This document shows, one piece after another, positions 10,795 to 24,463 of a stretch of DNA of 64,000 nucleotides. Source of the stretch: Verrucomicrobiota bacterium. Lineage in GTDB: Bacteria > Verrucomicrobiota > Verrucomicrobiia > Opitutales > Opitutaceae. The notes under the pieces are model-generated. The model did no database searches. It was not told the origin of the DNA and saw only the letters and a list, made by a program, of their open reading frames with translations. Both the position numbers and the translations under genes were made by a program. The stretch covers positions 1-64,000 of the forward strand of contig JACRKC010000042.1 in the NCBI GenBank assembly GCA_016235555.1. Direction: 5' to 3'. Each line of letters starts with the position of its first letter. Within the stretch, counting starts at the first letter, position 1.

Positions 10795-10833
10795 GCTCGG
10801 GTGATGAAATGGCAGACATGCGGGTCTTAGAAG
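10795..10833 (+). tRNA. tRNA-Leu(UAG) 5' half, split by island insertion (attL side)
   Basis: The sequence begins with acceptor strand GCTCGGG (10795-10801), continues through a tRNA-Leu D arm and ends in the anticodon loop CTTAGAAG (10826-10833; anticodon TAG). The following bases (tctatgcc) no longer pair with the anticodon stem, so the gene is interrupted here. The missing 3' half is at 21468-21517, with a matching CCCGAGC acceptor strand. The shared octamer CTTAGAAG is the likely recombination core. Confidence 0.85.
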
Positions 10834-10945
10834 TCTATGCCATTGCCAAACTACCTCATTCGCATTACGCAGCGGTAGAGCTGGTTAGAAAGACGTGGTG
10901 GATCGGAAATGGACGATCCCTATACCGCACTCCTATACTGGCACC

Positions 10946-11872
10946 ATGAACACGAAATCGACCGGAATTTCCTACCTCCGTCGCGACACCGACAGCGACG
11001 TTTACTACGCGGTGAAGAAAGTTCGGGGACGGCTCGTTTGGCGTTCTCTCGGCACCACCAAGTTGTGGGAGGCCAAGGCCATCTTGCCGGACAAGATCAA
11101 AGAAATCGAAGACGAGCGGCAGGTCATAACCGAAGCGAAGGTAAGTCCATCAATGACCTTTCGCGAGGCGATGGAGGTTTACCGTGCCGAAGTGGAAGTG
11201 ATGGCGATTCGATCGAGTTCGAAAGTGGTCCGCATGCGTCGCGAGGCGACCCTCAAGCGTTGCTGGCCCGACATTTTTGACCGTCCGCTACGGAGTTTCA
11301 CCGACGCTGAACTGAAACGATTCATCCACGAGTTCAGAGGCGGGAAGTCGGTTTACAAAAAGCACAATGGAAAGCTCACTCTCAAGGGTGACAGCCCAAC
11401 GACGATCAATGGGCTCATTCGCTTTTTGCACGCCGTGTTCGAGGTTGGAGTCCGTAACAAAATCATCCGGGAGAATCCTGCGGCTCATCTCAAACGGGCG
11501 AAGCCACGAGAGAAGCTGATGAACCTCCCAAACAAGCAGGAGTGGGCCAAGATGCTGGAGCACACGCGTGACACGCCGGGATGGGGGAGAAAAGCGGCCG
11601 ACCTCATTGAGGGACTGGCGTACAGCGGCATGCGAGTGGGTGAGAGCCGCCGTAGCATTTGGAGCCACGTCGATTTTGGCCGCGGGGTGTTCTATGTGCT
11701 GCCCGACAAGGGCGAAGTTCCCCGAGCTGTGCCCATGAACGCTGCCCTTCGCGAGTTGTTGCAGCGGATGTATGACTATCGGTGTCAGCATCACGGTAAA
11801 CCGCAGCCCACGGACAAGATTTTCGAGTGCGGTTCGGCGGCGGTTATGTTGCCGATAGGTATCCCGCCATAA
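10946..11872 (+). pseudogene. Tyrosine recombinase (integrase), C-terminally truncated
   Basis: A protein of about 308 residues from ATG 10946 (MNTKSTGISYLRR). It has an N-terminal arm-binding region, a SAM-like core-binding domain (ETLKRCWPDIF through FIHEFRG) and the first catalytic Arg in EGLAYSGMRVGESR. The reading frame ends about 60 residues after this Arg, without the HxxR box or nucleophile Tyr. The ending (SAAVMLPIGIPP) does not look like family sequence. Given its place just inside attL, it is the island's integrase, broken by a deletion. Confidence 0.75.
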
Positions 11873-11947
11873 ACGGACTTGCAGGGTCGCTTTGCGTAGA
11901 TCCGCAAGGTTTCCTTTTAAGGCGGCACGGAGCTGAGTAATCGTCAT
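11840..11947 (-). pseudogene. Fragment of a small gene (N-terminus only), fused into the integrase 3' end
   Basis: An ATG at 11947 overlaps the TGA of the next upstream gene (ATGA), with GAGGAAGAAA as a good ribosome binding site. The start reads MTITQLRAALKGNLADLRKATL, like a small basic helical protein, and continues for about 35 codons before entering sequence antisense to the integrase. The end given is the approximate deletion joint, not a stop codon. This is an interpretation: it may instead be a chance open frame. Confidence 0.35.
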
Positions 11948-12324
11948 GGTTTTTTCTTCCTCGGGTTCTTCGCGGGCATCGCGTTCTTGAAAACCATCGT
12001 CGTTACTTCCGGAATCTTGTGCAGGACCCAGCCATCCGTAGGGCCGTAGTCGCCCTTGTACTTTGCGACCCTCCATTTCTGACGTTCGTCTTGCAGGTCA
12101 AAGACGATGTCATACCCAGCCAAGACCTTTGCAGTGTCCGTATAATAGACGGTTACGTAGAGCACGTCGTTGGGCACGATGGTGAAGCCCGTTATGTTCG
12201 CAGTCTTCGCACCATCAGGGGCACGACTACCAATCTCCTCCCAGAGCTTTGCGAGCCGCACCCCTGACATATCGACGCCGGTTCGCTTCGTCAGTTGCGA
12301 GAGCGTTGGAGCCTTGAAGTTCAC
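11944..12324 (-). CDS. Hypothetical protein (island)
   Basis: A 126-residue soluble protein from GTG 12324 (MNFKAPTLSQLTKRTGVDM). A basic tail (AKNPRKKKP) ends the protein. I do not recognise a family. It is the third gene in a minus-strand run with 12342-12740 and 12768-13175, spaced by 17-27 bases, so these are probably co-transcribed. Its stop overlaps the start of the fragment at 11947. Confidence 0.6.
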   Translation of the reverse strand: MNFKAPTLSQLTKRTGVDMSGVRLAKLWEEIGSRAPDGAKTANITGFTIVPNDVLYVTVYYTDTAKVLAGYDIVFDLQDERQKWRVAKYKGDYGPTDGWVLHKIPEVTTMVFKNAMPAKNPRKKKP

Positions 12325-12341
12325 GTAGGTAGGGACGCGGC

Positions 12342-12740
12342 TTACGGCGTTTTGGCCGGTGGGGCGACCTTCGCTGGGCTAGTTGTCCCCACCGTGGCTG
12401 CTTGAGGGACTTTCCTCCCTCGCTTCTTGCGGCCAACAACGACTTCGACCGCTGTTCCGTTCGACTCCCACAGCACGGAGTATTGCTTCAAAAGCCGTGC
12501 GAGTTCCTCGACCGCATCCGGGATACCACCCATCCATCCGGTTTGCGTCTGCGGCGTCTGAATGCATGTGAGGATGATCGTCTCCTCAGTGACATTGCCG
12601 TAATAGCCGAGAGCCTTGGATACGGTCCATGCCTTGATGTACTTCTTCAAAATGACAGGGACTGCATTTTCATCCTGCGGGAAGAATTTGTGATGGGCGG
12701 TGTTGCGTGCAGCGATGTAGATGCGGTGGACTGTGTACAT
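12342..12740 (-). CDS. Hypothetical protein (island)
   Basis: A 132-residue protein beginning MYTVHRIYIAARNTAHHKFF. The middle part (TEETIILTCIQTPQTQTGWM) has alternating strand-like character, followed by a helix (AVEELARLLKQY) and a basic, Ala/Pro-rich tail. The tail (GRKKRGRKVPQ) could contact nucleic acid. No family is recognised. It is the middle gene of the small minus-strand operon. Confidence 0.6.
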   Translation of the reverse strand: MYTVHRIYIAARNTAHHKFFPQDENAVPVILKKYIKAWTVSKALGYYGNVTEETIILTCIQTPQTQTGWMGGIPDAVEELARLLKQYSVLWESNGTAVEVVVGRKKRGRKVPQAATVGTTSPAKVAPPAKTP

Positions 12741-12767
12741 AGGAAGAGCGGTAGTGCGGGATGCGTT

Positions 12768-13175
12768 TTAGAATTCACACGGAGCTAGTTTGGGTTTCAC
12801 GGGAGCGAGCACAGTAAACCCGTGAACTTTATGTTCCCCCTCATAGGGGCAGTTGTTCGTGGCTGTTTCACGCAGCGTGAATCCGGTCTTATCGTAAGTG
12901 ACACGGAACTCCCAAAGGTGCCGGCGTTGCATTACGATGACTATGCAGTCTAGCTTCTTGCCGACCCATTGCAGTGACCGCAGATCAATCCGCGTCGCAT
13001 TGGTGAAATTGCCGTCCGGTAGAAGAGTACGGACCGCATCGCAGTCAACCAGGTTGCCGACCTGTTGCCAAAAATCATCATGGGTGAGCTTTTCCTTTTT
13101 CAGAAACCGCGTGTACCGGTCACCGAGTTCGATGAGAACATAAGGCAGGTGTGGCGGCTTGAGCGTCAGCGACAT
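12768..13175 (-). CDS. Hypothetical protein (island)
   Basis: A 135-residue protein from ATG 13175 (MSLTLKPPHLPYVLIELG). An in-frame extension to 13277 adds a Cys/Arg-rich segment that looks unlike a real N-terminus. It contains LPDGNFTNATRIDLRSLQW and a C-terminal strand-rich portion. No family is recognised. It is probably the first gene of the operon running to 11944. Confidence 0.55.
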   Translation of the reverse strand: MSLTLKPPHLPYVLIELGDRYTRFLKKEKLTHDDFWQQVGNLVDCDAVRTLLPDGNFTNATRIDLRSLQWVGKKLDCIVIVMQRRHLWEFRVTYDKTGFTLRETATNNCPYEGEHKVHGFTVLAPVKPKLAPCEF

Positions 13176-13308
13176 GAATGAAAAGGTGCCCCGCCTGCAT
13201 TTTGCAGGCGTAACTCTCGTTACATCGACACCGATGGGAGGAACGCTAAGCCCAAAAGCTCCGCATATCTTGGCCAAAACGCGGATGCAGCAGCGTTACT
13301 TCTGCGAT

Positions 13309-14001
13309 TCAACCAGCGGCAATCGGAATCCGTACCGTGACAATGTGACCGGGTCCGCGTGGGTCCGACTTCACTTCCGTAATCGAATAATTACCAGACC
13401 CAACATAGCGGATCAGTTGCCGCACGAGGGTCGTGCGGTTGCCCTGCACGTACGTGGGCGTGTTCTTAGCAATTCCGAAGGTCTTTTTTATGCGACCGAT
13501 GAGGTATTGTTCTGTGGTTCGCTTCGAAGCCTTGTAGACTTTGAGAGCTTCAACACGTGCATCGTCGTGTGCGACACTTGTGATGATGCGGTTCCCGAAC
13601 AGCCCCTCATGCGTAACCCGCAATCCACGCTGACGGAATTCGTCCCAAAGGTGGGCATTGTTCTTAGGTCCTTGCGTCATCCCACATCGTGAACCGAGTG
13701 GTTGGGTTTGAAGATATCGCACGACATCTTCGATCGTCTTGCGTGTGACCATCGCCGCAGGGATGGTGATTGCAGGCGGCGGAACGGGGACGGGAATGTC
13801 GACTTCCGGCGTGACCATCCAACCCTTTTCCGCCTGCCGGCAAATCGCTTTACCTTGGCACAGTTTCTCCAGCCGTCCCCGTATGCCGGCATAGTTGCCT
13901 TGAACGTAGTAGGACGTGCCTGCTTTGAGTCCGCCGTTGTTCAATATCACATTTTCCAGCAAAAATTGGTCGCTCGTTCGCTGAGATTTCCGCGGATTCA
14001 T
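13309..14001 (-). CDS. Hypothetical protein with an internal duplication (island)
   Basis: A 230-residue protein from ATG 14001 (MNPRKSQRTSDQFLL). Two related segments are visible: an N-terminal one with LKAGTSYYVQGNYAGIRGRL and a C-terminal one with IAKNTPTYVQGNRTTLVRQL. They share the pattern leucine-rich helix, TxxYVQGN, then a basic helix, and are linked by a Pro-rich stretch (PVPVPPPAITIP). The repeated unit may be a small DNA- or RNA-binding module, which is inference. No known family is recognised. Confidence 0.6.
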   Translation of the reverse strand: MNPRKSQRTSDQFLLENVILNNGGLKAGTSYYVQGNYAGIRGRLEKLCQGKAICRQAEKGWMVTPEVDIPVPVPPPAITIPAAMVTRKTIEDVVRYLQTQPLGSRCGMTQGPKNNAHLWDEFRQRGLRVTHEGLFGNRIITSVAHDDARVEALKVYKASKRTTEQYLIGRIKKTFGIAKNTPTYVQGNRTTLVRQLIRYVGSGNYSITEVKSDPRGPGHIVTVRIPIAAG

Positions 14002-14168
14002 GAGGTAAAGAACATCGGCACAAGCGTGAGACAACTGAACGGGCGTTCAACGACGCTGATGCGGCAGACCGCATCACCTACGCTTCACGCCGCCAGCCGG
14101 CAGACGTTGGCCGTTTCATTTCTGGATTCCGAGCCATCCATCCATTGCAGGCCCACGACTGCCAAGGC

Positions 14169-14330
14169 CGATGCTCGCTTCGCTCGTGAGTGTTAGCGTC
14201 TGCCCGTGCCGTGTTTTCCAAGTGTAACAACGCGTCAAGGTCGAACGCTTCGCGTCTCCACCTATCGCCAACGCGTTCGCTTCCCCCTCCGTTGGTGCCG
14301 CAGCGGCACACTGCCTCGGCACTCACAAGG
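14169..14330. repeat. Diverged ~160-bp island repeat, copy A
   Basis: This spacer shares, in order, cgatgctc, gttag, ctgcccgt, caaggt, acgcttcgcgtctccacct, cttccccct and cctcggc with 14925-15090. It has no convincing coding frame. Copy A lies between the divergent hypothetical gene at 14001 and the DUF6573 gene at 14428. Confidence 0.6.
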
Positions 14331-14427
14331 CTATGACTCCGTTGTTGGAAAAACGGCAAATCCGGTGCAGCTCCACCGATACCCCCGCAATTCGCGGGGA
14401 TGTGGGGCTCACTGGGTTCGCCTTACA

Positions 14428-14796
14428 ATGAATCCAAACGATGAAATCTTCGGAGCACCGATCTACAGTTATTCCCGCAGCCAGGCCATCGAGGATGGTA
14501 TGTTGGTCGACATCTCCCAACTGGAGATTGTGAAGCAACATTGGAAGCTGCCGTGTGCATGCTCGTCTTCCGTGTGGGGCATCATCGATGATGCCACTGT
14601 TCGCGGGTTCGACCGCATCGGAATCCTCCATGACCTATTCACGCTGGCAAAAGCCAAGATTCCGCCATCTGAGAAGACGAACCGCCTGTATTTCAAGGCC
14701 GTCGTTGCCTATCGCACCTATGACTTCGTGTTACACTGCGGCCCAGGGGATGACGCACTGCCGGTGCTAACGCTGATGCTACCGTCAGACGATTGA
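14428..14796 (+). CDS. DUF6573 family protein
   Basis: A 122-residue protein from ATG 14428. The opening MNPNDEIFGAPIYSYSRSQA followed by IEDGMLVDIS is characteristic of DUF6573, a small family common on plasmids, phages and integrated elements, function unknown. The rest (FDRIGILHDLF, YFKAVVAYRTYDFVLHCGPG) is consistent with that fold. It is followed at once by a strong terminator, so it is a single-gene unit. A GC-rich hairpin (cccccgcaattcgcggggat) lies about 40 bases upstream of the start. Confidence 0.75.
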   Translation: MNPNDEIFGAPIYSYSRSQAIEDGMLVDISQLEIVKQHWKLPCACSSSVWGIIDDATVRGFDRIGILHDLFTLAKAKIPPSEKTNRLYFKAVVAYRTYDFVLHCGPGDDALPVLTLMLPSDD

Positions 14797-14799
14797 ACG

Positions 14800-14821
14800 A
14801 AGGGGCTTCGGCCCCTTTTTT
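14800..14821 (+). terminator. Rho-independent terminator with UUCG tetraloop
   Basis: Seven-base arms aaggggc and gcccctt close a TTCG loop (14800-14817), followed by a T-run to 14821. It sits four bases after the stop codon of the DUF6573 gene. Confidence 0.9.
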
Positions 14822-14924
14822 CGTCCGATTGAATTTTGTGGCTTCGCGAGGAATGGAGGCCCCGCCCACCCGCACACCTCGCACGCTTTGGGCTCCTCGC
14901 TCCGGTGTGCACCCTTGTTACAAA

Positions 14925-15090
14925 CGATGCTCACTACGTTCGGATGTTAGTGCTACTGCCCGTCCGCTGGACTCCCAATTTTACCGCCGGGTACAAGGTA
15001 GTACGCTTCGCGTCTCCACCTGCGGTCCGATTGCCTCCACTTCCCCCTCGTCGGAGCACGCTCTTTCCTCGGCGTTACGCAGGACCTTGA
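14925..15090. repeat. Diverged ~160-bp island repeat, copy B
   Basis: This copy matches copy A at 14169-14330 in the same orientation, with the longest identity over acgcttcgcgtctccacct. It lies in the 360-nt gap between the DUF6573 terminator and the methyltransferase operon, where no gene is otherwise seen. It could be a transcribed structured RNA, a promoter region or decayed coding DNA. Confidence 0.55.
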
Positions 15091-15183
15091 CCTACGGCGG
15101 TGGGAAGGGCTTCGCCCAAGCGGGCAGAGCCGATAAGCGTCTCAATCCGAGATGCACGGTGAAACTCGCCTGGGTGAAGAATC

Positions 15184-15309
15184 ATGCGAGTCTACGAAGC
15201 ACGGCTTGAATTTGTCCCAACGCTCTGGGAAGTCGGCACCGAGCGTCTCAGCACCCCAGATGCGGTCTACGGCTACCCGGAAGATGGAGGTCATCGCTAT
15301 CACCGATAA
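15184..15309 (+). pseudogene. Possible 41-codon remnant of a RadC/JAB-type gene N-terminus
   Basis: ATG 15184 opens a short frame beginning MRVYEARLEFVPTLW and containing ERLSTPDAVYGY. It resembles the start of JAB-domain (RadC-like) proteins common on bacterial elements, then ends in unrelated codons (EDGGHRYHR). It overlaps the beginning of the methyltransferase frame, suggesting that a deletion fused a lost gene's N-terminus to the methyltransferase leader. A leader peptide is the alternative. Confidence 0.25.
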
Positions 15310-18232
15310 GGTGGAACGAAAGACCACGCCGAAAAGCACGACGCCGGGTAAGAAGAAAACGACCGGAGCGGGGCAATTCACCATCGGTAATGCCGAGGAA
15401 ACCGAACGCCCCAAGCAGGTCGAGCTGCAGTTCAACGTCGGGGAACTCGAAAAGGCCCTCTACGCACGCGTCGTCAAGAAGTGCGGCAACCGTAACTACT
15501 GGGACGAATGGGCAAAGGACATCGCCGACATCGCCCAAACGCACATTGCTCGAATTACAACGATTGTCAGTAATCCGGAGAACGTGAAGGAGGCGGGAGC
15601 GTTCCAATCGTTCGCGAATGAGCTACGCGATGATTTGAACGATTCGATTACCAACGAGGAGGTGATCGAAATGCTAGCACAACATCTCATCACCAAGCCG
15701 GTCTTCGACGCCCTCTTCAAGGACTACAGCTTCGCGAGCAACAATCCCGTCTCGCTTGCGATGCAGAAGGTGCTCGACGTGCTCCAAGAGCACCATCTTG
15801 AGAAAGAAGCGGATACCTTGGAAAAATTCTACGCCAGCGTACGGATGCGGGCAGACGGTATCGAAAACGCCGCAGGAAAGCAGAAGATCGTCGTCGAGCT
15901 CTACGATAAGTTTTTCCGCAATGCTTTCCCGCGAATGACGGAGCGGCTCGGCATCGTTTACACTCCTGTTGAGGTCGTGGACTTCATCATCCGCAGCATA
16001 AATGACCTTCTGAAACAGGAGTTTAACGTTACCTTGGGCACGAAGGGCGTTCACATCATCGATCCGTTCACCGGAACCGGAACATTTGTGACCCGCCTCC
16101 TTCAGAGCGGGCTCATCCCGCTCGATCAACTGCCGCACAAGTATAAACACGAGATTCACGCCAACGAAATCGTGCTTTTGGCGTATTACATCGCAGCAAT
16201 TAACATTGAGGCCGTGTACCACAGCCTAGCAGGCAAGGAATACACTCCGTTCGAGGGAATTTGTCTTACCGACACGTTCCAGATGTACGAGAAGGACGAC
16301 TTGGTGAGCGACTTGATGGAGAATAACTCGGAACGTCGCAGGCGTCAGACGAAATTGGACATACGCGTCATCATGGGCAATCCCCCATACTCCAAAGGTC
16401 AAGACGATGCCAACGATAACAACCAAAACGTTTCTTATCCCAATTTGGACAAGCGAATCAGGGATACCTACGGTGCGAAATCCGAAGCCACGAACGTTAA
16501 TGGACTCTACAATTCTTACATTCGTTCGATTCGCTGGGCATCCGACCGAATCGGTAAATCGGGAATCATTGGTTTCGTAACGAACGGTGGTTTTCTGGAG
16601 GGCAATGCGGCAGCCGGCTTACGCAAGTGTCTCGCGGATGAGTTTTCATCCATTTTTATTTTCCACCTTCGAGGCAATCAACGTACGTCAGGAGAACTTT
16701 CGAGGAAAGAAGGAGGTAAAATCTTTGGTTCAGGCAGCCGTGCACCTATTGCCATTTCCCTGCTTGTGAAGCGACCAGGAGCGTCCACCAACGGTCAGAT
16801 TTCATTTCACGATATTGGCGACTACCTCACTACCGAACAAAAACTAAGAATCATAGCGGAGTTCGGCAGCATCAATGGCATCACAAAGATAGCCGGATGG
16901 AAAACGATTACGCCGGACCAGCATGGCGACTGGTTGAAGCAGCGTGATAGTTCCTTTTCCGAATATCTCGTGATGGGTGATAAGAGTGGCATGCAAAGCA
17001 GCAAGATTTTCGATAACTACTCGAATGGGTTAAAGACCCAACGCGATGACTGGTGTTACAATTCGTCGAAGACAGTCCTGTCCGCGAATATGCAGCGGAT
17101 GATTTCCCTCTACAACAACGAGGTGAAGCGATTCCATGCAGCGTACGGAAAATTAGAAAAGAAGGACCGCGAAGACGTTGTGGATAAATTCGTCATCACT
17201 GATCCTGCACAAATCAGTTGGACGCGTGCCCTCAAGAATGACCTCGTCAAAGGTAAGTATTTTGCCTTCGACCCAAACGGCCTTACGAAATCGCTCTATC
17301 GACCATTTCATAAGCAATGGCTCTACTTTGACCGTCATTTCAATGAGATGGTTTATAAGATGCCACGCATCTTTCCGGATGCTGCGGCTCAGAACATCGT
17401 AATCGGATTTTCGAGCTCCGATACCCGGAGCAAACTATCCGTCTTTATTTCTGACTGTGTTCCCAGCCTCCATGCTGTGGACATGGTAGGGTCTCAGTTC
17501 TTTCCGCTCTATCTCTACGAGACCGAGGTGGAGGAACCCGATACCGATGAACTGTTCACCAAGGAGGACACTGGGAAGGTCGTTCAGGCACGCCGCGACG
17601 CGATCACTGATGCGAGTTTGACTTACTTCCGAGGGAAGTTCGAAGGCGATGCGAAAGGTAGAGTGATAACAAAGGAGGACATATTTTATTACGTCTATGG
17701 CATCCTGCAGTGTCCTGATTACCGCAGTCGTTTTGCCGACAATCTAAGTAAGGAGCTTCCGCGTATTCCGTGCGTCAAAACGGCCGAAGGTTTCTGGGGA
17801 TTTTCAAGAACAGGCCGCGACTTGGCTGCCCTCCATCTCAACTACGAGAAAGCTGAACCACACGCGGTCACGCTGGACTTCGGTAAAAACCGTCTTTCGG
17901 CCGTGTCGGATGCCGACTACTACGTCACCAAGATGAAGTTCGCTTCAAAGGCGGATAAATCGGTGGTAGTTTACAACCCTCACATCACGATTCGAAACAT
18001 CCCTATTGAGGCGTACGAGTACGTGGTGAATGGCAAGCCGGCCCTGGAGTGGGTTATGGAATGGCAGGGCGTGACGACGGACAAAGACAGCGGGATCGTG
18101 AATGACGCCAATCTCTGGGCAACAGAGACGATGGGCAGTGCCCGCTACCCGCTCGATCTCTTCTGCCGTGTTATCACGGTCAGCCTAGAGACGCAAAAGC
18201 TCGTGAAGAGCTTACCGCCACTGGATATCTAA
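15284..18232 (+). CDS. N6-adenine DNA methyltransferase, type ISP/PglX-like, without nuclease or helicase domains
   Basis: A protein of about 982 residues. A helical N-terminal 'coupler'-like region (about 60-240) precedes the methyltransferase core: motif I IDPFTGTGTF (about 259-268) and catalytic motif IV GNPPY (N about 366). A long C-terminal target-recognition region follows (about 450-900). The arrangement matches the C-terminal two-thirds of type ISP restriction enzymes, but the Mrr nuclease and RecA-like helicase are absent, so on its own it should only methylate. Genes 18241 and 19297 follow within a few bases. The start is uncertain: the frame is open back to ATG 15152, but that leader overlaps the remnant at 15184. 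Confidence 0.85.
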   Translation: MEVIAITDKVERKTTPKSTTPGKKKTTGAGQFTIGNAEETERPKQVELQFNVGELEKALYARVVKKCGNRNYWDEWAKDIADIAQTHIARITTIVSNPENVKEAGAFQSFANELRDDLNDSITNEEVIEMLAQHLITKPVFDALFKDYSFASNNPVSLAMQKVLDVLQEHHLEKEADTLEKFYASVRMRADGIENAAGKQKIVVELYDKFFRNAFPRMTERLGIVYTPVEVVDFIIRSINDLLKQEFNVTLGTKGVHIIDPFTGTGTFVTRLLQSGLIPLDQLPHKYKHEIHANEIVLLAYYIAAINIEAVYHSLAGKEYTPFEGICLTDTFQMYEKDDLVSDLMENNSERRRRQTKLDIRVIMGNPPYSKGQDDANDNNQNVSYPNLDKRIRDTYGAKSEATNVNGLYNSYIRSIRWASDRIGKSGIIGFVTNGGFLEGNAAAGLRKCLADEFSSIFIFHLRGNQRTSGELSRKEGGKIFGSGSRAPIAISLLVKRPGASTNGQISFHDIGDYLTTEQKLRIIAEFGSINGITKIAGWKTITPDQHGDWLKQRDSSFSEYLVMGDKSGMQSSKIFDNYSNGLKTQRDDWCYNSSKTVLSANMQRMISLYNNEVKRFHAAYGKLEKKDREDVVDKFVITDPAQISWTRALKNDLVKGKYFAFDPNGLTKSLYRPFHKQWLYFDRHFNEMVYKMPRIFPDAAAQNIVIGFSSSDTRSKLSVFISDCVPSLHAVDMVGSQFFPLYLYETEVEEPDTDELFTKEDTGKVVQARRDAITDASLTYFRGKFEGDAKGRVITKEDIFYYVYGILQCPDYRSRFADNLSKELPRIPCVKTAEGFWGFSRTGRDLAALHLNYEKAEPHAVTLDFGKNRLSAVSDADYYVTKMKFASKADKSVVVYNPHITIRNIPIEAYEYVVNGKPALEWVMEWQGVTTDKDSGIVNDANLWATETMGSARYPLDLFCRVITVSLETQKLVKSLPPLDI

Positions 18233-18240
18233 CATTGAAG

Positions 18241-19293
18241 ATGCCCAAACCGACTATGAGCGACCCATCCAGCACACTCGCGAGCAACCTAGAGGGAAAG
18301 ACGATTAAGGGAACCGTTCGTGAGTGGGTCGTTGAAAAGAAGCTGAAGGGCGGCGGTTTTTCATCTGGCTATCGAGTTCGTGACGGTGACGGACGTATTG
18401 CCTTCATGAAGGCAATCAACCTTGCCTATGCTGCCGACTCGACTGGCTTCAGCGGTTCCAAAGCAGATTTGATGTCATCCCTGATTGATGAATTCAAATA
18501 CGAGCGAGACCTTTTGAAATGGTGTGGGGAGGAGCGACTAGATCGCATTGTTGTATCGCTAGACAGCGGTGAGTATCAGGAAAAGGCGTTCTCATATTTC
18601 GTTCCTTTCCTCGTGTTTGAGTTCACGGAGGAAGGAGACGTGCGGAAACACACGAAGATGCATGCCCCAGGGCTTGCGTGGCGATTGCGGATATTCCACG
18701 GAATCTGTGTTGGAATCCGGCAACTCCATAGCCTCGATGTGGTGCATCAGGATTTGAAGCCTGAGAATGTCCTCATATTTAATGGGGATGTCTCGAAGAT
18801 CGCGGACTTGGGTAGAAGCACCTCGAAAAGCCCAACTGCAAAGTTTAATGCACCGGGACATTGCGGCGATTGGCATTACGCTCCCATCGAATTGCAATAC
18901 GGGCACCACTCCACGGACTGGGCCGTGCGGAGAAAGGGGGCAGACCTCTACATGCTTGCAGGACTGTTGGCTTTTTTGGTCGCAGACGATCATTTGCTGG
19001 CACGAATCCTTACGCGGCTGCCCGACTCCTACCATCCGCTACGCTGGAAGGGCTCATTTGCCGATGCTCTGCCAGCAATCCGCACGGCAACTTATGACGC
19101 AATCGAGGAACTCACTGCGAAATTGGACCCTAAAATCAAGAAGCCGATTGCCGACCTGATGCTTTGGCTCGCAGAACCAGAGCCCGAAAAGCGGGGACAC
19201 CCGGACACAGTCGCCCAAGCAGCGGGAGATCGCTATTCGCTAGAAAGAATCATTTCAGTGGCGGATCGTATTGCGTGGGCGGCGAGAGTGTAA
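18241..19293 (+). CDS. Serine/threonine protein kinase of the methyltransferase-kinase-TPR operon
   Basis: A 350-residue single-domain kinase with no membrane span. Gly-loop GGGFSSGY (37-44), VAIK-type Lys in AFMKAI (about 57), catalytic loop VVHQDLKPENV (His169, Asp171, Lys173) and metal-binding ADLG (188-191) are all present; APE is replaced by APIE. It should therefore be catalytically active. The start is ATG 18241, eight bases after the methyltransferase stop; TTG 18235 is an alternative. The gene ends three bases before the TPR gene. Linkage to a DNA methyltransferase recalls BREX/Pgl systems, where a kinase (PglW) is required, but this protein is far smaller than PglW. Confidence 0.85.
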   Translation: MPKPTMSDPSSTLASNLEGKTIKGTVREWVVEKKLKGGGFSSGYRVRDGDGRIAFMKAINLAYAADSTGFSGSKADLMSSLIDEFKYERDLLKWCGEERLDRIVVSLDSGEYQEKAFSYFVPFLVFEFTEEGDVRKHTKMHAPGLAWRLRIFHGICVGIRQLHSLDVVHQDLKPENVLIFNGDVSKIADLGRSTSKSPTAKFNAPGHCGDWHYAPIELQYGHHSTDWAVRRKGADLYMLAGLLAFLVADDHLLARILTRLPDSYHPLRWKGSFADALPAIRTATYDAIEELTAKLDPKIKKPIADLMLWLAEPEPEKRGHPDTVAQAAGDRYSLERIISVADRIAWAARV

Positions 19294-19296
19294 CGT

Positions 19297-20913
19297 ATGA
19301 ACAACGCCCAGAACGACCCGAAGAGAATTGTTCTGCCGCGTTGGCTGCCGTTCGAGAAGGCTTCGCAAGAGCGGGAACTCACAACGTTTGCATCGAAGAA
19401 TCCTCAACTCGACCGTACGGAAAGCATTCGAGCGTTTCGGGAGCACCTCGGGGAGTTCGCAGCGGCTCCGCAGCCTTTCATCGGGGCGGAGTTAATGGGT
19501 ATCGCGGTTGTTTTAGGGGAGAAGGATGCCGCAAAGCAACTTGCTGAATACGTCCTAACGCAGCCAGTTCTTCGCAGTCAGGTGGTGGATTCTGCGAATC
19601 GCATTTTGGGTCGAAACCTCACCAGTGTCATTGCCGACCCTAACGAAAGTTTGCGGGGCACCAAGTCACGCGTTCGTGCATTCGTGCGGGATGGACTATC
19701 GTGGATGGACCAAGCACGCCTTTACACGATTAAAGGGCAGTATGCCCAAGCGGAGAAATCCGTTCGTGCTGCTCTGCACCTATGCCCGACAGACCGGTTT
19801 GTGATTCGGTCGGCGATTCGATTTTATGTGCATTTCAGAAAGTGGGATCTTGCTCTGAATTGTGCTCAGCGAGGTTACGAGCGAACCGGGGACCCACTGA
19901 TTTTCGGACCACTCCTAGGGATTTCGATGCACATGGGCAAAACCCTTGCTCGCACGAAGGTGAACGTTGAGGCGGCACTTCGCGACCGAGATATTTTGTT
20001 ACACTCGGAAACCCTGGAGGCGTACGGGACGCTTGAAGTTCTGAATGGGGCTGCTCAGCGATCAAAACGGTTTTTCAAACAAGCGTGGGTTGACCCAACC
20101 GTCTCGGTTGTTGGCCACAGTCAGTGGATTCTTCGTGAGCATCTACCAACTCTCGTTGGAGAGCAGGCTCCCGACTTCTCGAAGAGCAAAGAGGCCTTGG
20201 GTTGGCTCCGGTTTGCGATGCTCGATTTTGATGCGGTAAATCCCATCGTCCAAGATTGGGCCTTGGAAGAACCCTTTTCACGAAGCCCGTTCATCCTTGG
20301 GAGCAACGCCGCCTGCTTGACCGACTCCTATGCGGATGCAGAGGTGTTGGCGAACCAAGGACTCCTAGCGAACCCCAAGGACCCGATTCTACTGAACAAT
20401 CTCGCCTTTGCCCAACTGCGGCAGGGCAATTTGGAGGCCGCTAAAGTTTCGTTCGAGCCTGTTAAATCGCGGTTGGGTGATGCGAAGGAAATCGCCCCAA
20501 TGGCGACGAACGGTCTGCTACAGATGATGCTCGGTGACGTTACGGCTGGCGTTGAGTCTTACCTAACTGCGATTCGTCGGGCTCATGACCTTGGCGACCG
20601 CAGACTCGTTCTCCGGGCCACGTTAAACCTGATGATCTCGACTCTCGATGTTACGAAAAAGGTCGAGCTACCGTTGTTGAAGAGTGCTCAGGCTGCACTT
20701 CGGGGGCAGACCGATGCTGGCTGTTTGGGTGCAGCTTTGGCGATTACGCGTAGGCTAGAGCGTTCTGACCTCTCCGGAACGGACGAGTTGAGCACCGGAG
20801 CCAGAGAGTTTTGTGATGCGGTAAAGAAGGAGGTGGCGAGCTTCCAAAAGACCATTGTCGCCAACTTGCTGGAAATGTCGAAACGACGAAACCAGCCGCA
20901 GGCTCAGTCCTAA
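19297..20913 (+). CDS. TPR-repeat protein of the methyltransferase-kinase-TPR operon
   Basis: A 538-residue, helix-rich soluble protein. TPR-like units are visible at about 130-200 (DQARLYTIKGQYAQAEKSVR, then FVIRSAIRFYVHFRKWDLAL) and 355-425 (PILLNNLAFAQLRQGNLEAA, then MMLGDVTAGVESYLTAI). A weaker helical region follows to the C-terminus. No enzymatic motif is seen, so a scaffold or sensor that binds the kinase or methyltransferase is plausible. It starts three bases after the kinase stop and is the last gene before the island's tRNA. Confidence 0.8.
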   Translation: MNNAQNDPKRIVLPRWLPFEKASQERELTTFASKNPQLDRTESIRAFREHLGEFAAAPQPFIGAELMGIAVVLGEKDAAKQLAEYVLTQPVLRSQVVDSANRILGRNLTSVIADPNESLRGTKSRVRAFVRDGLSWMDQARLYTIKGQYAQAEKSVRAALHLCPTDRFVIRSAIRFYVHFRKWDLALNCAQRGYERTGDPLIFGPLLGISMHMGKTLARTKVNVEAALRDRDILLHSETLEAYGTLEVLNGAAQRSKRFFKQAWVDPTVSVVGHSQWILREHLPTLVGEQAPDFSKSKEALGWLRFAMLDFDAVNPIVQDWALEEPFSRSPFILGSNAACLTDSYADAEVLANQGLLANPKDPILLNNLAFAQLRQGNLEAAKVSFEPVKSRLGDAKEIAPMATNGLLQMMLGDVTAGVESYLTAIRRAHDLGDRRLVLRATLNLMISTLDVTKKVELPLLKSAQAALRGQTDAGCLGAALAITRRLERSDLSGTDELSTGAREFCDAVKKEVASFQKTIVANLLEMSKRRNQPQAQS

Positions 20914-20918
20914 GATGG

Positions 20919-21001
20919 TGCTCGGGACAGGATTCGAACCTGCACGGTTTTCACCAGCGGCTTCTAAGACCGCCGCGTATAGCCAGTTCCGCCACCCGAG
21001 C
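20919..21001 (-). tRNA. Island-borne complete tRNA-Leu(UAG)
   Basis: On the minus strand the acceptor strand GCTCGGG (from 21001) pairs with CCCGAGC near 20920. A D arm (TGGCTATACGC), anticodon stem-loop with TCTTAGAAG (anticodon TAG), long class II variable arm and T arm (CAGGTTCGAATCCTG) are all present. The isotype and anticodon are those of the gene split at 10795/21468. CCA is not encoded. Confidence 0.95.
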
Positions 21002-21061
21002 GGTGAAGGAAGGATCACGCTGATTTCCGGGAAAAATTTGGCAAGACCCGAACACGGCAGC

Positions 21062-21090
21062 AAAAAAGGGACCCCTCACGAGAGGGTCCC
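21062..21090 (-). terminator. Rho-independent terminator of the excisionase-like gene
   Basis: On the minus strand, arms gggaccc and gggtccc close a 9-nt loop and are followed by six T residues. The hairpin overlaps the stop codon of the gene at 21076-21264. Confidence 0.8.
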
Positions 21091-21264
21091 AGCGGCGAGA
21101 ACGCGGAGGTCTTTCCACGGAACTCGGATGTGCCGAAGAAACGGCACACGACGAAGTTTCTTACGGACGATGAGTCTCCGAATCGTGACGGGCGTGACTT
21201 TCAGAAACCTTGCGGCCTCCTCAAGTGTTGCTACGGTGTCGCCTTGAGATGATGTAGTTTCCAT
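21076..21264 (-). CDS. Excisionase-like helix-turn-helix protein
   Basis: A 62-residue protein from ATG 21264 (METTSSQGDTVATLEEAARF). LEEAARFLKVTPVTIRRLIV is a MerR/excisionase-type HTH followed by a basic wing (RKKLRRVPFLRHIRVPW), typical of recombination directionality factors and small repressors. It sits near the right end of the island, opposite the integrase. An in-frame upstream start at 21315 is possible. Confidence 0.8.
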   Translation of the reverse strand: METTSSQGDTVATLEEAARFLKVTPVTIRRLIVRKKLRRVPFLRHIRVPWKDLRVLAAGTLS

Positions 21265-21467
21265 GGCGGCCGGGGGCCGAAAGACCACCGACGTGCCACG
21301 TAGCCCACTCATCACCAGGTCAAGATTGCTCCTAACCGGCTCCTATACCAACGGCACTTTTTCGATTCAGATTAAGTCCTTTTGAGTCCGTTTGAGCGAA
21401 TCGCCCTGATCGCTCTTGTCCTCTCAAAACGGATGAGTTCACTTGGGCGTAGGCTTGGCAAATCGGA

Positions 21468-21517
21468 CTTAGAAGCCCGTGCCGCAAGGCGTGCGGGTTC
21501 GAGTCCCGCCCCGAGCA
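21468..21517 (+). tRNA. tRNA-Leu(UAG) 3' half (attR side of the island)
   Basis: From the octamer CTTAGAAG the sequence continues with the 3' anticodon stem GCCCG, variable arm TGCCGCAAGGCGTG, T arm GCGGGTTCGAGTCCCGC and acceptor strand CCCGAGC plus A. Joined to 10795-10833 it gives a standard tRNA-Leu. The bases just 5' (acttgggcgtaggcttggcaaatcgga) vaguely resemble a tRNA-Leu 5' half, but the anticodon stem does not pair, so a functional tRNA is unlikely. Confidence 0.85.
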
Positions 21518-21623: not shown

Positions 21624-22675
21624 ATGAGATCGACAAAGCCGCACGTAAAACGATGGAACTGGGGCGGGCCGCAAACCAACTGGGTTGTCGACGGACTCCG
21701 CGACGAAAACGGCAAACGGAAGCGATGCTTCTTTCCTTCGCGAGACGCGGCGCACGAGTGGCTGGCGGGGCGTCACCTTGAACTTCAAAACCAAGGGCGT
21801 GCGGCTATGGGTTTGACCGATGCGCCGCGCGTGGACGCCGTGCGTGCCTCGCCCTACTGGCTCCGTTTTCGGCCACGCTGACGGAAGCCGCCCAGCTATT
21901 TGCAGAGCGGGCGCAGATGCTGTCCCGGACCGTGACCTTTTCGACGCTGCGGGATGAGCTACTCGCAGCAAAGCGCGCCGACCGGAAATCGAAACAATAC
22001 CTCACGGACCTTTCGCATCGGCTCGCCACGTTCAGCCGGGACTTTGGCGAAAGGCAGGTCGCTGGAATCGAGACACGCGAGATCGACGACTGGCTGCGCG
22101 GGCTCAAGCAGTCCCCCATCAGCCGCCTGAATTTCAGAAAGGTGCGCTGCACGACTTTCGCATTTGCCGTATCTCGCGGATACGCTCGCGAGAATCCAGT
22201 GCTCAAAACTGCACGGGTGAAGATTGACCACGCCACGCCGGGAATCCTGCGGCCGGCTGAAATCGCCGAGCTACTCGCCGCGGCAGACCCGAAGATTGTG
22301 CCGGCGCTGGCCCTCGCGGCGTTCGCGGGACTGCGCGACGCCGAGGTTGGCCGAATGACATGGGATCGCCTCGATCTTGTTGGCGGCTACGCAAAGGTGG
22401 ATGCCGCCATCGCCAAGACATCGAGCCGGCGGTTGATCCCGGTCTCAACCAACCTGCGGGCGTGGCTTGCTCCGTTTGCCCAGTCGGAAGGAAAGGTGCG
22501 CGGCGCCAAGCGCACGCTCGATCCGCTCTATCGCGATGCGCGAGCCAAAGCCGCGGCGATATTGGAGAAAGCCCGGCAACCAGCACGCGGCCTGCTTGAT
22601 TGGCCGCACAACGCGCTCCGGCATTCGTTCGTTTCCTATCGAATGGCGCTCGTGGCAAACTCCGCGCAGGTATGA
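21624..22675 (+). pseudogene. Tyrosine recombinase (second integrase), frameshifted and 3'-truncated
   Basis: The N-terminal part reads from ATG 21624 (MRSTKPHVKRWNWGGPQTNW, an arm-binding-like region). At about 21845 the frame shifts: loss of one base near cgtgcctcgcc would restore reading into LTEAAQLFAERAQML and the downstream frame. That frame holds the core-binding domain and a catalytic part with FAGLRDAEVGRMTW (Arg) and NALRHSFVSY (HxxR region replaced by RHSF). The frame then stops after ALVANSAQV, without the second His box and Tyr, exactly where helicase sequence begins. It is non-functional as read. Confidence 0.75.
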
Positions 22676-24463
22676 CCGTTTGTTTCCAAATCAGGATACC
22701 CTGCCCGTTGGCGGGTTTGGAAATCTGATCGCATTGCCATTGGCAAAGGTTCCGCGGCAAAGCGGAAACACCCTCTTCATGGACGCCCGCATGGTGACCT
22801 TCGAGGACCAGTGGTCATATCTCGCAGGGCTTCCCCGGCTGAGCCGGGAAAGCCTGGACCGATTGCTCGCAAGAATTTCCCCCGTCGGATCGCCGGTATC
22901 GGTTCTCCAGGCTGGCGCTGAAGCGGAACACCGACACGACTTCGCGCTGCAAAGCGACGCGGCGGTGTTGGACCTGTCGCATCCACGAATCCGCGGTGGC
23001 ATGATCTCGGGCGAAGTGACGGTCCGGCTCGATGCGCAAATTCATGTGCCCCGATCACTGCCGACACCACTGCTGGCGGCCTTACGGAAGCTCGCGACGT
23101 TTCCCAATCCGGTCTTTCACGAGAAGCTCAGGCTGCGGTTCGCCACGTTTGACACCCCGCGATTTCTCTTCACCGGTGAATGGCACGCCGACCGCCTCGC
23201 TCTGCCACGCGGCGTGCTGGATCAATGCCTCGCACTGCTGGAGTCTGCCGGTGCCACCGTGGTCACGCAGGATGCGCGGGATGCCGGGACCCGCGTGGCG
23301 TGGAAATTCCAGGGTGAGTTGCGGGATGGGCAGGAGAAGGCGGTGCGCAGGATCCTTGCGGAAGACAACGGAGTGCTCTGCGCCCCGCCGGGGGGGGGAA
23401 GACGGTCATGGGCTGTGCGTTGATCGCACGCGCCCGCGCCTCTGCGCTCGTGTTGGTTCACCGCTCGGTGCTCGCGGAGCAGTGGCGGGAGACCGCCATG
23501 CGATTTCTCGGATTGAAGCGAAAGGAGGTCGGTCTCTGGCGCGGGTCTTCGCCTCGGCTCACCGGACGATTCGACATTGCCATGCTGCCGTCGCTGATTC
23601 GCGTGGAAAATCTGGCGGCGGCGCTGGGAGGCTATGGAGTGGTCCTCGTCGACGAATGCCACCATGTCCCCGCTACTTCATTCGAGATGGTGCTAAAGGC
23701 GTGCCCCAGCCGGCGGATTTACGGACTCACCGCGACCCCGAAGCGCAAGGATCGGTTGGAGAAATTGCTCTTCGCCCAATGCGGACCAATCCGGCACACG
23801 CTGGTCGATGCTCCGACCGATGAAGCGCGGACGGTCAAAGTTCGCCACACCACCGTGACACTGCCGCCCGATGCCAGGCCACGACCGCCAATCCATATCG
23901 TGTGGGAAGCGTTGGTGCAGGATGAAAACCGGATCAAGTTGATCGTCGCCGATCTGCTGACGTGCGTGGCGTCGGGACGTTCCCCGCTCGTGCTGGCGGA
24001 CCGCAAGGTCTACTTGGAACGGTTGCAGGCGGCGTTCACCGCGGAGGCCACCGGCGTGACGTGTCATAGGCTGGACGGCCAGATGGGAAAGAAAGCCCGG
24101 AACGAAGTGCTGCGGCAGATCGATGAGCACTACAATGAGCGGAAACCGTTCGTGCTGTTTGCCACGGCGTCGCTGATCGGCGAGGGATTCGATCTTCCGC
24201 GTTTGGATACTTTGGTGCTGGCGATGCCGCTTTCGTTCAAGGGGCGGCTCGTGCAATACGCTGGCCGGCTCCACCGGCAGCATGAGACCAAAGACGCTGC
24301 GATGATCTTCGACTATCTCGACCACAACCATGCGATCACCAGCGCGATGTTTCGACGACGACTCGCCGGCTACAGGGAACTTGGGTATGTGGTCGAGATG
24401 CCGCAGAGCGAAGCTGCACCATGGTTCGGAGACAAACCAACTGAGTCCGGGCGCACGGAATAG
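22668..24463 (+). pseudogene. TOTE conflict-system primase/helicase, C-terminal part, frameshifted in Walker A
   Basis: The sequence begins inside the family at RYDRLFPNQDTLPVGGFGN, so the N-terminal primase catalytic part is missing. After a linker domain comes GVLCAPPG, then a run of nine G residues (23390-23398) that changes frame. Adding one base restores G-K-T of Walker A and continues into GCALIARARASALVLVHRS, the DEAD-like box VLVDECHH (about 23650), LTATPKRKD and the C-terminal helicase motif FATASLIGEGFD...VQYAGRLHR. Family members are predicted NTP-dependent conflict (anti-phage) proteins. The 5' truncation and frameshift make this a likely pseudogene, unless the G-run is a sequencing error or phase-variable. 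Confidence 0.75.

Follow-up and report, generated by a model that had tools for sequence, protein, structure and literature searches.

The window analyzed here comprises 64,000 nucleotides of a 129,610-base contig from the draft genome (8.0 Mb) of a member of the Verrucomicrobiota. It contains an integrative element of 10.6 kb whose cargo includes three consecutive plus-strand genes encoding a DNA methyltransferase, a Ser/Thr protein kinase and a tetratricopeptide repeat (TPR) protein (Table 1). All three reading frames are intact. The original prediction had described the trio as compact, with gaps of 8 and 3 bases. Positions, strands and the 3-nt gap between the kinase and TPR genes stand. 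Of the three start candidates of the kinase gene, ATG 18256 is where the PADLOC profile sets in, so that the gap between the methyltransferase and kinase genes amounts to 8–23 nt, depending on the start, and is not surely 8.

Table 1. Features of the integrative element and of the tRNA gene into which it is inserted.
Feature	Position	Strand	Remarks
Split host tRNA-Leu(TAG), 5′ half	10795–10833		Break at anticodon loop
Integrative element splitting chromosomal tRNA-Leu(TAG)	10826–21475		Shared core CTTAGAAG at 10826–10833 and 21468–21475
Tyrosine recombinase (integrase), left end of element	10895–11872	+	PF00589, 1.1e-7; XerC/XerD-like, below curated cut-offs
DUF6573 gene, element backbone	14428–14796	+	PF20213, 1.9e-10; same family near radC in L095
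radC-type JAB gene, 5′ remnant	15184–15309	+	Likeness ends at about codon 31–34 (15276–15285); frame runs on to stop at 15309
Methyltransferase gene, C-terminal part of type ISP restriction-modification enzyme (coupler, methyltransferase, specificity)	15284–18232	+	982 codons, frame already open from 15137; no nuclease or helicase; DPFTGTGTF and NPPY motifs intact
Ser/Thr protein kinase gene, PDC-M71A	18256–19293	+	PADLOC 4.3e-85; Pkinase; alternative starts TTG 18235, ATG 18241
TPR solenoid protein gene, PDC-M71B	19297–20913	+	PADLOC 2.6e-64; TPRs (Pfam); all-helical model
Intact tRNA-Leu(TAG), element-borne	20916–21001	−	Likely replacement for split host tRNA
Small helix-turn-helix gene, possibly excisionase	21076–21264	−	HTH_17, 2.2e-7
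Split host tRNA-Leu(TAG), 3′ half	21468–21517		

The presumed location on a tRNA-borne island was borne out. ARAGORN called no tRNA in the left or the right stretch alone, and it called tRNA-Leu(tag) once the flanks were joined at the shared core (10826/21468). The combined anticodon-loop and T-arm pattern of tRNA-Leu(TAG) occurs twice in the genome, namely in the intact tRNA gene of the element and in the chromosomal 3′ half; no other intact copy of the searched anticodon-loop pattern is present genome-wide, variants of the pattern being such as would escape this search. Thus, the element seems to replace the tRNA that it breaks. The same logic of replacing a broken tRNA is found in tRNA-dependent lysogeny (PMC10865867). 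Such replacement was described in actinobacterial phages; the present case looks like an instance of it in an integrating island that lies outside that group.

By its Pfam domains (ISP_coupler PF22240, 9.1e-53; N6_Mtase PF02384, 2.8e-7; Type_ISP_C PF18135, 5.7e-108) the methyltransferase is a type ISP enzyme. The further suggestion that it might be PglX-like had to be dropped because none of the 14 PADLOC families it matches, with ISP/IIG models in the lead, is PglX or BrxX. It shares the coupler, methyltransferase and specificity domains with type ISP restriction-modification enzymes, of which LlaGI (5ffj) and LlaBIII (4xqk) are its closest solved relatives by sequence; in contrast to these enzymes it lacks the Mrr nuclease and the SF2 helicase in its chain and should not restrict. 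The protein spans positions 661–1640 of the 1646-position PADLOC profile and represents the C-terminal 60% of a type ISP enzyme. Its identity to two full-length relatives of 1,624 and 1,653 aa is about 65% (65.1% and 65.2%), which puts its divergence slightly above that between the intact relatives themselves (69.2% identity). Homology begins at residue 654–659 of the 1624-aa enzyme from a Pseudomonas mendocina plasmid; the common T/P-R-K-M-E-V starts at about 15275 in the window, and tblastn extends the match to 15269.

The region upstream of the methyltransferase gene offers an explanation for the missing N-terminal half. Residues 1–35 of the 41-residue radC remnant match, by tblastn, a 151-aa open reading frame of the family genome G360 with a RadC domain (PF04002, 1.6e-36) and an upstream DUF6573 gene, as in the window. 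In alignments with the RadC-like sequences of G360, G099 and G340 the likeness weakens beyond codon 31 and is lost at codon 34. The remnant has four matches besides itself in family genomes, three of them RadC-like, and none in plasmids; the fourth, in G338 (E 0.0015, residues 9–40), falls into a frame that looks unrelated and probably reflects chance. The points at which radC and type ISP homology break off lie within about 20 bases of each other, the pattern that one deletion or recombination leaves. The absence of nuclease and helicase, correctly noted in the original prediction, is best read as a deletion scar; the gene taken for that of a methyltransferase free of these domains encodes the tail of a type ISP restriction-modification enzyme and is joined to a radC-type 5′ end. 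The deletion event itself we infer from the sequence at this junction. Displacement of the N-terminal half to another site was rejected as no match to it was found elsewhere in the genome (E ≤ 0.001). A related backbone in G360 (L095) carries a DUF6573 gene and, about 1.1 kb from it, an intact radC, with no kinase–TPR pair in its 3.1 kb.

A search of the phylum for relatives of the enzyme listed 29 matches including the window itself. Thirteen of the other matches reach at least 43% identity over at least 925 of the 982 residues; 12 of these lie in open frames of 1613–1754 aa, one of which has an internal TGA, and the thirteenth (G193, 922 aa) extends up to the end of its contig. A natural methyltransferase-only lineage of type ISP proteins is therefore not supported for this branch. 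Another 13 matches are partial and were left unclassed (frames of 265–2858 aa), and a separate type ISP-like subfamily of about 39% identity is represented in G155 and on contig C106 of the genome studied here (frames of 1077 and 1147 aa). The protein of 1140 aa encoded on the latter contig (L048:1378–4800) is a different type ISP-like protein which shows 38% identity to the full-length enzyme from residue 738 on and whose N-terminal region is shorter than a nuclease plus helicase would need. In plasmid records 240 matches were found, 152 of which cover at least 80% of the query in one place; the best one, the only plasmid match whose gene length was read, is the single 1,624-aa type ISP gene of P. 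mendocina.

The truncated enzyme is predicted to be no longer capable of restriction and would at most methylate its target site as an orphan. Given that its frame and both catalytic motifs are intact and that its divergence is near ordinary, residual methylation is possible, and the gene may still be under selection. The stop codon of the radC remnant lies about 25 bases inside the methyltransferase frame; this arrangement might permit coupled re-initiation.

The kinase matches positions 1–342 of the 352-position PADLOC profile PDC-M71A with 284 bits, and the TPR protein positions 1–479 of the 515 positions of PDC-M71B. Hence, the expectation of a compact defense candidate stands for the kinase–TPR pair, and that of an undescribed triplet does not, since the pair is already catalogued in PADLOC. 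As judged from profile matches, the locus differs from PDC-M71 by the adjoining truncated type ISP gene. The assignment of the two products to a small Ser/Thr kinase (352 aa at most) and a TPR protein was confirmed. Invariant in all members of a five-member and a nine-member alignment (5/5 and 9/9) are a lysine, the aspartate of HxD, an asparagine and the aspartate of D-[LF]-G, which we take to be the catalytic K/D/N/D residues. The AlphaFold model of the kinase displays a kinase fold (mean pLDDT 88) matched by many kinases. The TPR protein is modeled as an all-helical solenoid (mean pLDDT 83) whose best 50 matches among PDB folds are general TPR solenoids with TM-scores by query length of 0.20–0.41, no specific structural relative being among them. 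No further Pfam domain was found in either protein; the kinase is therefore likely to be the effector and the TPR protein a regulator or sensor.

Other defense kinases are more distant. Stk2, PD-T4-6 and MAD6 have the protein kinase domain in common with the window protein, but their PADLOC matches (1.6e-6, 1.1e-12 and 5.4e-18, respectively) cover only part of the kinase and fall far behind PDC-M71A. Against the NCBIfam model of MAD6, the MADS kinase, the window protein scores 34.2 bits, below the curated cut-off of 460. A partial PADLOC match to mad2 (9.4e-26) was obtained for the methyltransferase.

The kinase gene precedes the TPR gene on the same strand in all of 17 non-redundant two-gene loci, which span four phyla (one inferred) and viral contigs. 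The spacing ranges from −68 to +9 nt, with an overlap in 13 loci; in the two most extensive cases the overlap varies with the choice of start codon. At E ≤ 1e-12 the TPR protein is found in four of 252 family genomes (that of the window, G018, G415 and G416), and it also matches a contig of G216, a genome of the same phylum. Plasmids of Deinococcus, Rhizobium and Arthrobacter carry the pair, as do nine distinct viral contigs and 13 of 5,426 E. coli genomes, of which three regions were examined in detail. A scan of genome contigs with a three-sequence TPR alignment detected one locus. A first scan of viral contigs with the kinase gave no match, and the phage records contained two weak matches to Listeria phage kinases (24.5% identity). 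Omitted from the count were TPR-only copies at contig ends (L009/L040/L041 on one contig; L052), a kinase fragment (L045), duplicate or overlapping loci (L001, L010, L011, L047, L051, L065–L069, L093, L099–L101, L105–L109) and weak kinase matches passing neither profile at 1e-20 (L060, L061, L102–L104); the E. coli loci L063 and L064 were counted together with L062.

Some copies have peculiar surroundings. The fragment L045 is a shortened kinase gene beside an IS6 element in Deinococcus wulumuqiensis, and an IS5 element separates the kinase and TPR genes in the E. coli strain of L064. In G415 the contig of the pair also harbors Eco57I-type methylase genes and a TrwC relaxase gene (L089:968–3252), a methylase of this type being located about 7 kb from the pair. 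The TPR gene of G416 is directly followed by two neighboring large genes, coding for 641 and 625 aa (L090:9474–13273), whose products have no Pfam match at E ≤ 0.05. The G018 pair lies between genes of chromosomal look, as judged by eye. The G415 and G018 cases count against the reading preferred below.

In only one of the 17 loci, that of the window, is a type ISP gene present (phmmer, E ≤ 1e-3). The upstream DNA available for this count was at least 3.3 kb for 14 of the 16 other loci, 1.1 kb for L053 and nil for L058; downstream, just 0.3 kb was available for G415 and 1.8 kb for L057. Within these limits the triplet did not recur, which counts against the central idea of the original prediction, a single system of three genes with the kinase as guard or switch of the modification enzyme. 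In favor of that idea, a methyltransferase is also combined with a kinase in BREX and Pgl, and the same-strand arrangement of intact genes with gaps of 8–23 and 3 nt is compatible with it. The resemblance to BREX and Pgl is confined to the side-by-side position of the two genes, whereas the methyltransferase is a type ISP enzyme without a match to any PglX model. In line with the original prediction, a genome-wide search for PglZ (PF08665, E ≤ 0.001) found nothing; 2 of 14 control genomes did match. Judged by size, the element contains no BrxC/PglY or large PglW: open reading frames other than the methyltransferase, kinase, TPR and integrase genes encode at most 262 aa, and the kinase has no more than 352 aa. 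The locus was therefore rejected as a known BREX or Pgl variant. Further points against a three-gene system are the methyltransferase 5′ end, which resembles a recombination scar inside radC, the long frames of its near-full relatives, and the existence of pair loci devoid of this methyltransferase. With the enzyme being a type ISP tail fused to a radC-type start, a kinase-guarded methyltransferase is unlikely as a conserved design. The three genes very probably do not form one conserved system, and we regard a kinase that guards or switches this modification enzyme as highly improbable.

Instead, we consider it probable that the kinase–TPR operon, the candidate defense system PDC-M71, is the functional unit carried as cargo by the tRNA-Leu element, and that the methyltransferase is a separate type ISP remnant. 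PDC stands for phage defense candidate (PMC11514479). Support for a role in defense comes from the location of prophage copies. Two of them (L056 and L059) are inserted between a relative of P2 gpA (phrog_91) and the portal gene (phrog_68), with the terminase gene beyond, and a third (L055) between psu and the integrase gene of a P4-like element, followed further on by a second integrase gene. The gpA–gpQ (portal) interval of P2 and the psu–int interval of P4 are hotspots of anti-phage systems (PMC9122126); the passages of that survey considered here name no kinase–TPR system. Thus, three of the nine viral-contig copies could be placed in known hotspots, the neighbor families of most viral-contig copies being only partly identified. 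Genes annotated near the pair in plasmids and E. coli include a relative of a Pycsar effector, a NACHT gene, a PDDEXK nuclease gene, and TIR and reverse-transcriptase genes. The portal gene in L059 (10710–11716) is split into two overlapping frames, reflecting a frameshift or sequencing error.

No published experiment on PDC-M71 or on a kinase–TPR pair was found in the PMC literature, preprints beyond PMC lying outside the scope of this search. Likewise, the titles and abstract openings of PMC papers on kinases, tetratricopeptide proteins, BREX and PADLOC that were surveyed gave no description of the pair; the survey included passages of DefensePredictor (PMC13092281). The defensive function of the pair is accordingly deduced from prophage position and PADLOC curation.

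The tight coupling of the two genes and their occurrence in plasmids, in viral contigs and in an integrative element might also suit a module that serves mobile elements as a stability or toxin-antitoxin device, with the kinase as toxin and the TPR protein as antitoxin and without specific sensing of phages. Most toxin-antitoxin pairs are, however, not made up of two large genes with a kinase gene in first position, and three copies of the pair reside in published anti-phage hotspot intervals. We hold such a module to be rather unlikely, with the qualification that it can also act in defense and to this extent overlaps with the reading preferred here.

Among published systems met in this study, KKP would be the nearest analogue of the kinase–TPR pair, with a different composition. 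Both are Ser/Thr kinase modules; KKP occurs in P2, P4 and other prophages and is reported to act against phages by kinase toxicity (PMC11341870), which sets a precedent for kinase-based prophage defense. By contrast, KKP consists of two kinases plus a PP2C phosphatase, whereas the window encodes one kinase and a TPR protein, and a Pfam scan of the island open reading frames revealed no phosphatase, second kinase, FHA or cold-shock domain. According to the same source, KKP regulates prophage production in addition to defense. By analogy, the kinase–TPR pair could be a regulatory module that controls lysogeny or excision of its carrier by phosphorylation, defense being secondary. The carriers of the pair are unrelated, however, comprising P2-like and P4-like elements, plasmids, the tRNA island and the G018 locus, in which no element gene was noticed by eye. 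This makes control of one carrier's own circuits unlikely, and we assign little probability to it.

Taking the defense reading as a basis, the kinase–TPR operon is probably a two-gene, phosphorylation-based abortive-infection cassette. The TPR protein would bind the kinase and either hold it inactive or present substrates to it. The kinase might then be freed when the solenoid meets a phage component or when the TPR protein is lost in the course of infection, and it would phosphorylate host proteins and stop growth before phage release. A mode of action of this kind has been reported for KKP kinases and for Stk2. The methyltransferase would take no part in this process, its gene being the putative 3′ part of a type ISP restriction-modification gene that deletion or recombination fused to the start of a radC-type gene. 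Going beyond the single locus, it is tempting to speculate, with due reserve, that the pair represents a widespread, mechanistically uncharacterized two-protein immune system: on sensing a phage product, the TPR solenoid would set free a kinase that arrests growth. The cassette would pass between P2 prophages, P4 satellites, plasmids and tRNA islands in four or more phyla, and in the present island the remaining type ISP methylase might have been put to use for marking element DNA.

What is new here is a member of the catalogued candidate PDC-M71 that adjoins a truncated type ISP gene within a tRNA-replacing element. A doubtful three-gene system is thereby replaced with a clean, testable two-gene candidate, and the occurrence of some copies in two published prophage and satellite defense hotspots makes it testable in E. 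coli. The locus also illustrates how loss of the N-terminal half can make the tail of a restriction enzyme resemble a designed methyltransferase-only partner; truncated tails of this kind are likely to be a trap in the mining of defense islands.

Two other regions of the genome bear on mobile DNA and tRNA genes. Just to the right of the element, at 22467–24463, two overlapping frames contain fragments of the primase domain of a TOTE conflict system (PF22548, 5.1e-22) and of an SF2 helicase (ResIII, 3e-13). They are preceded by an integrase fragment (21917–22675), and the region looks like a decayed element. On contig C48 of the same genome (63360–69653) sixteen tRNA matches, several of them low-scoring, are crowded on one strand within 6.3 kb; this dense array is perhaps of phage or plasmid origin.
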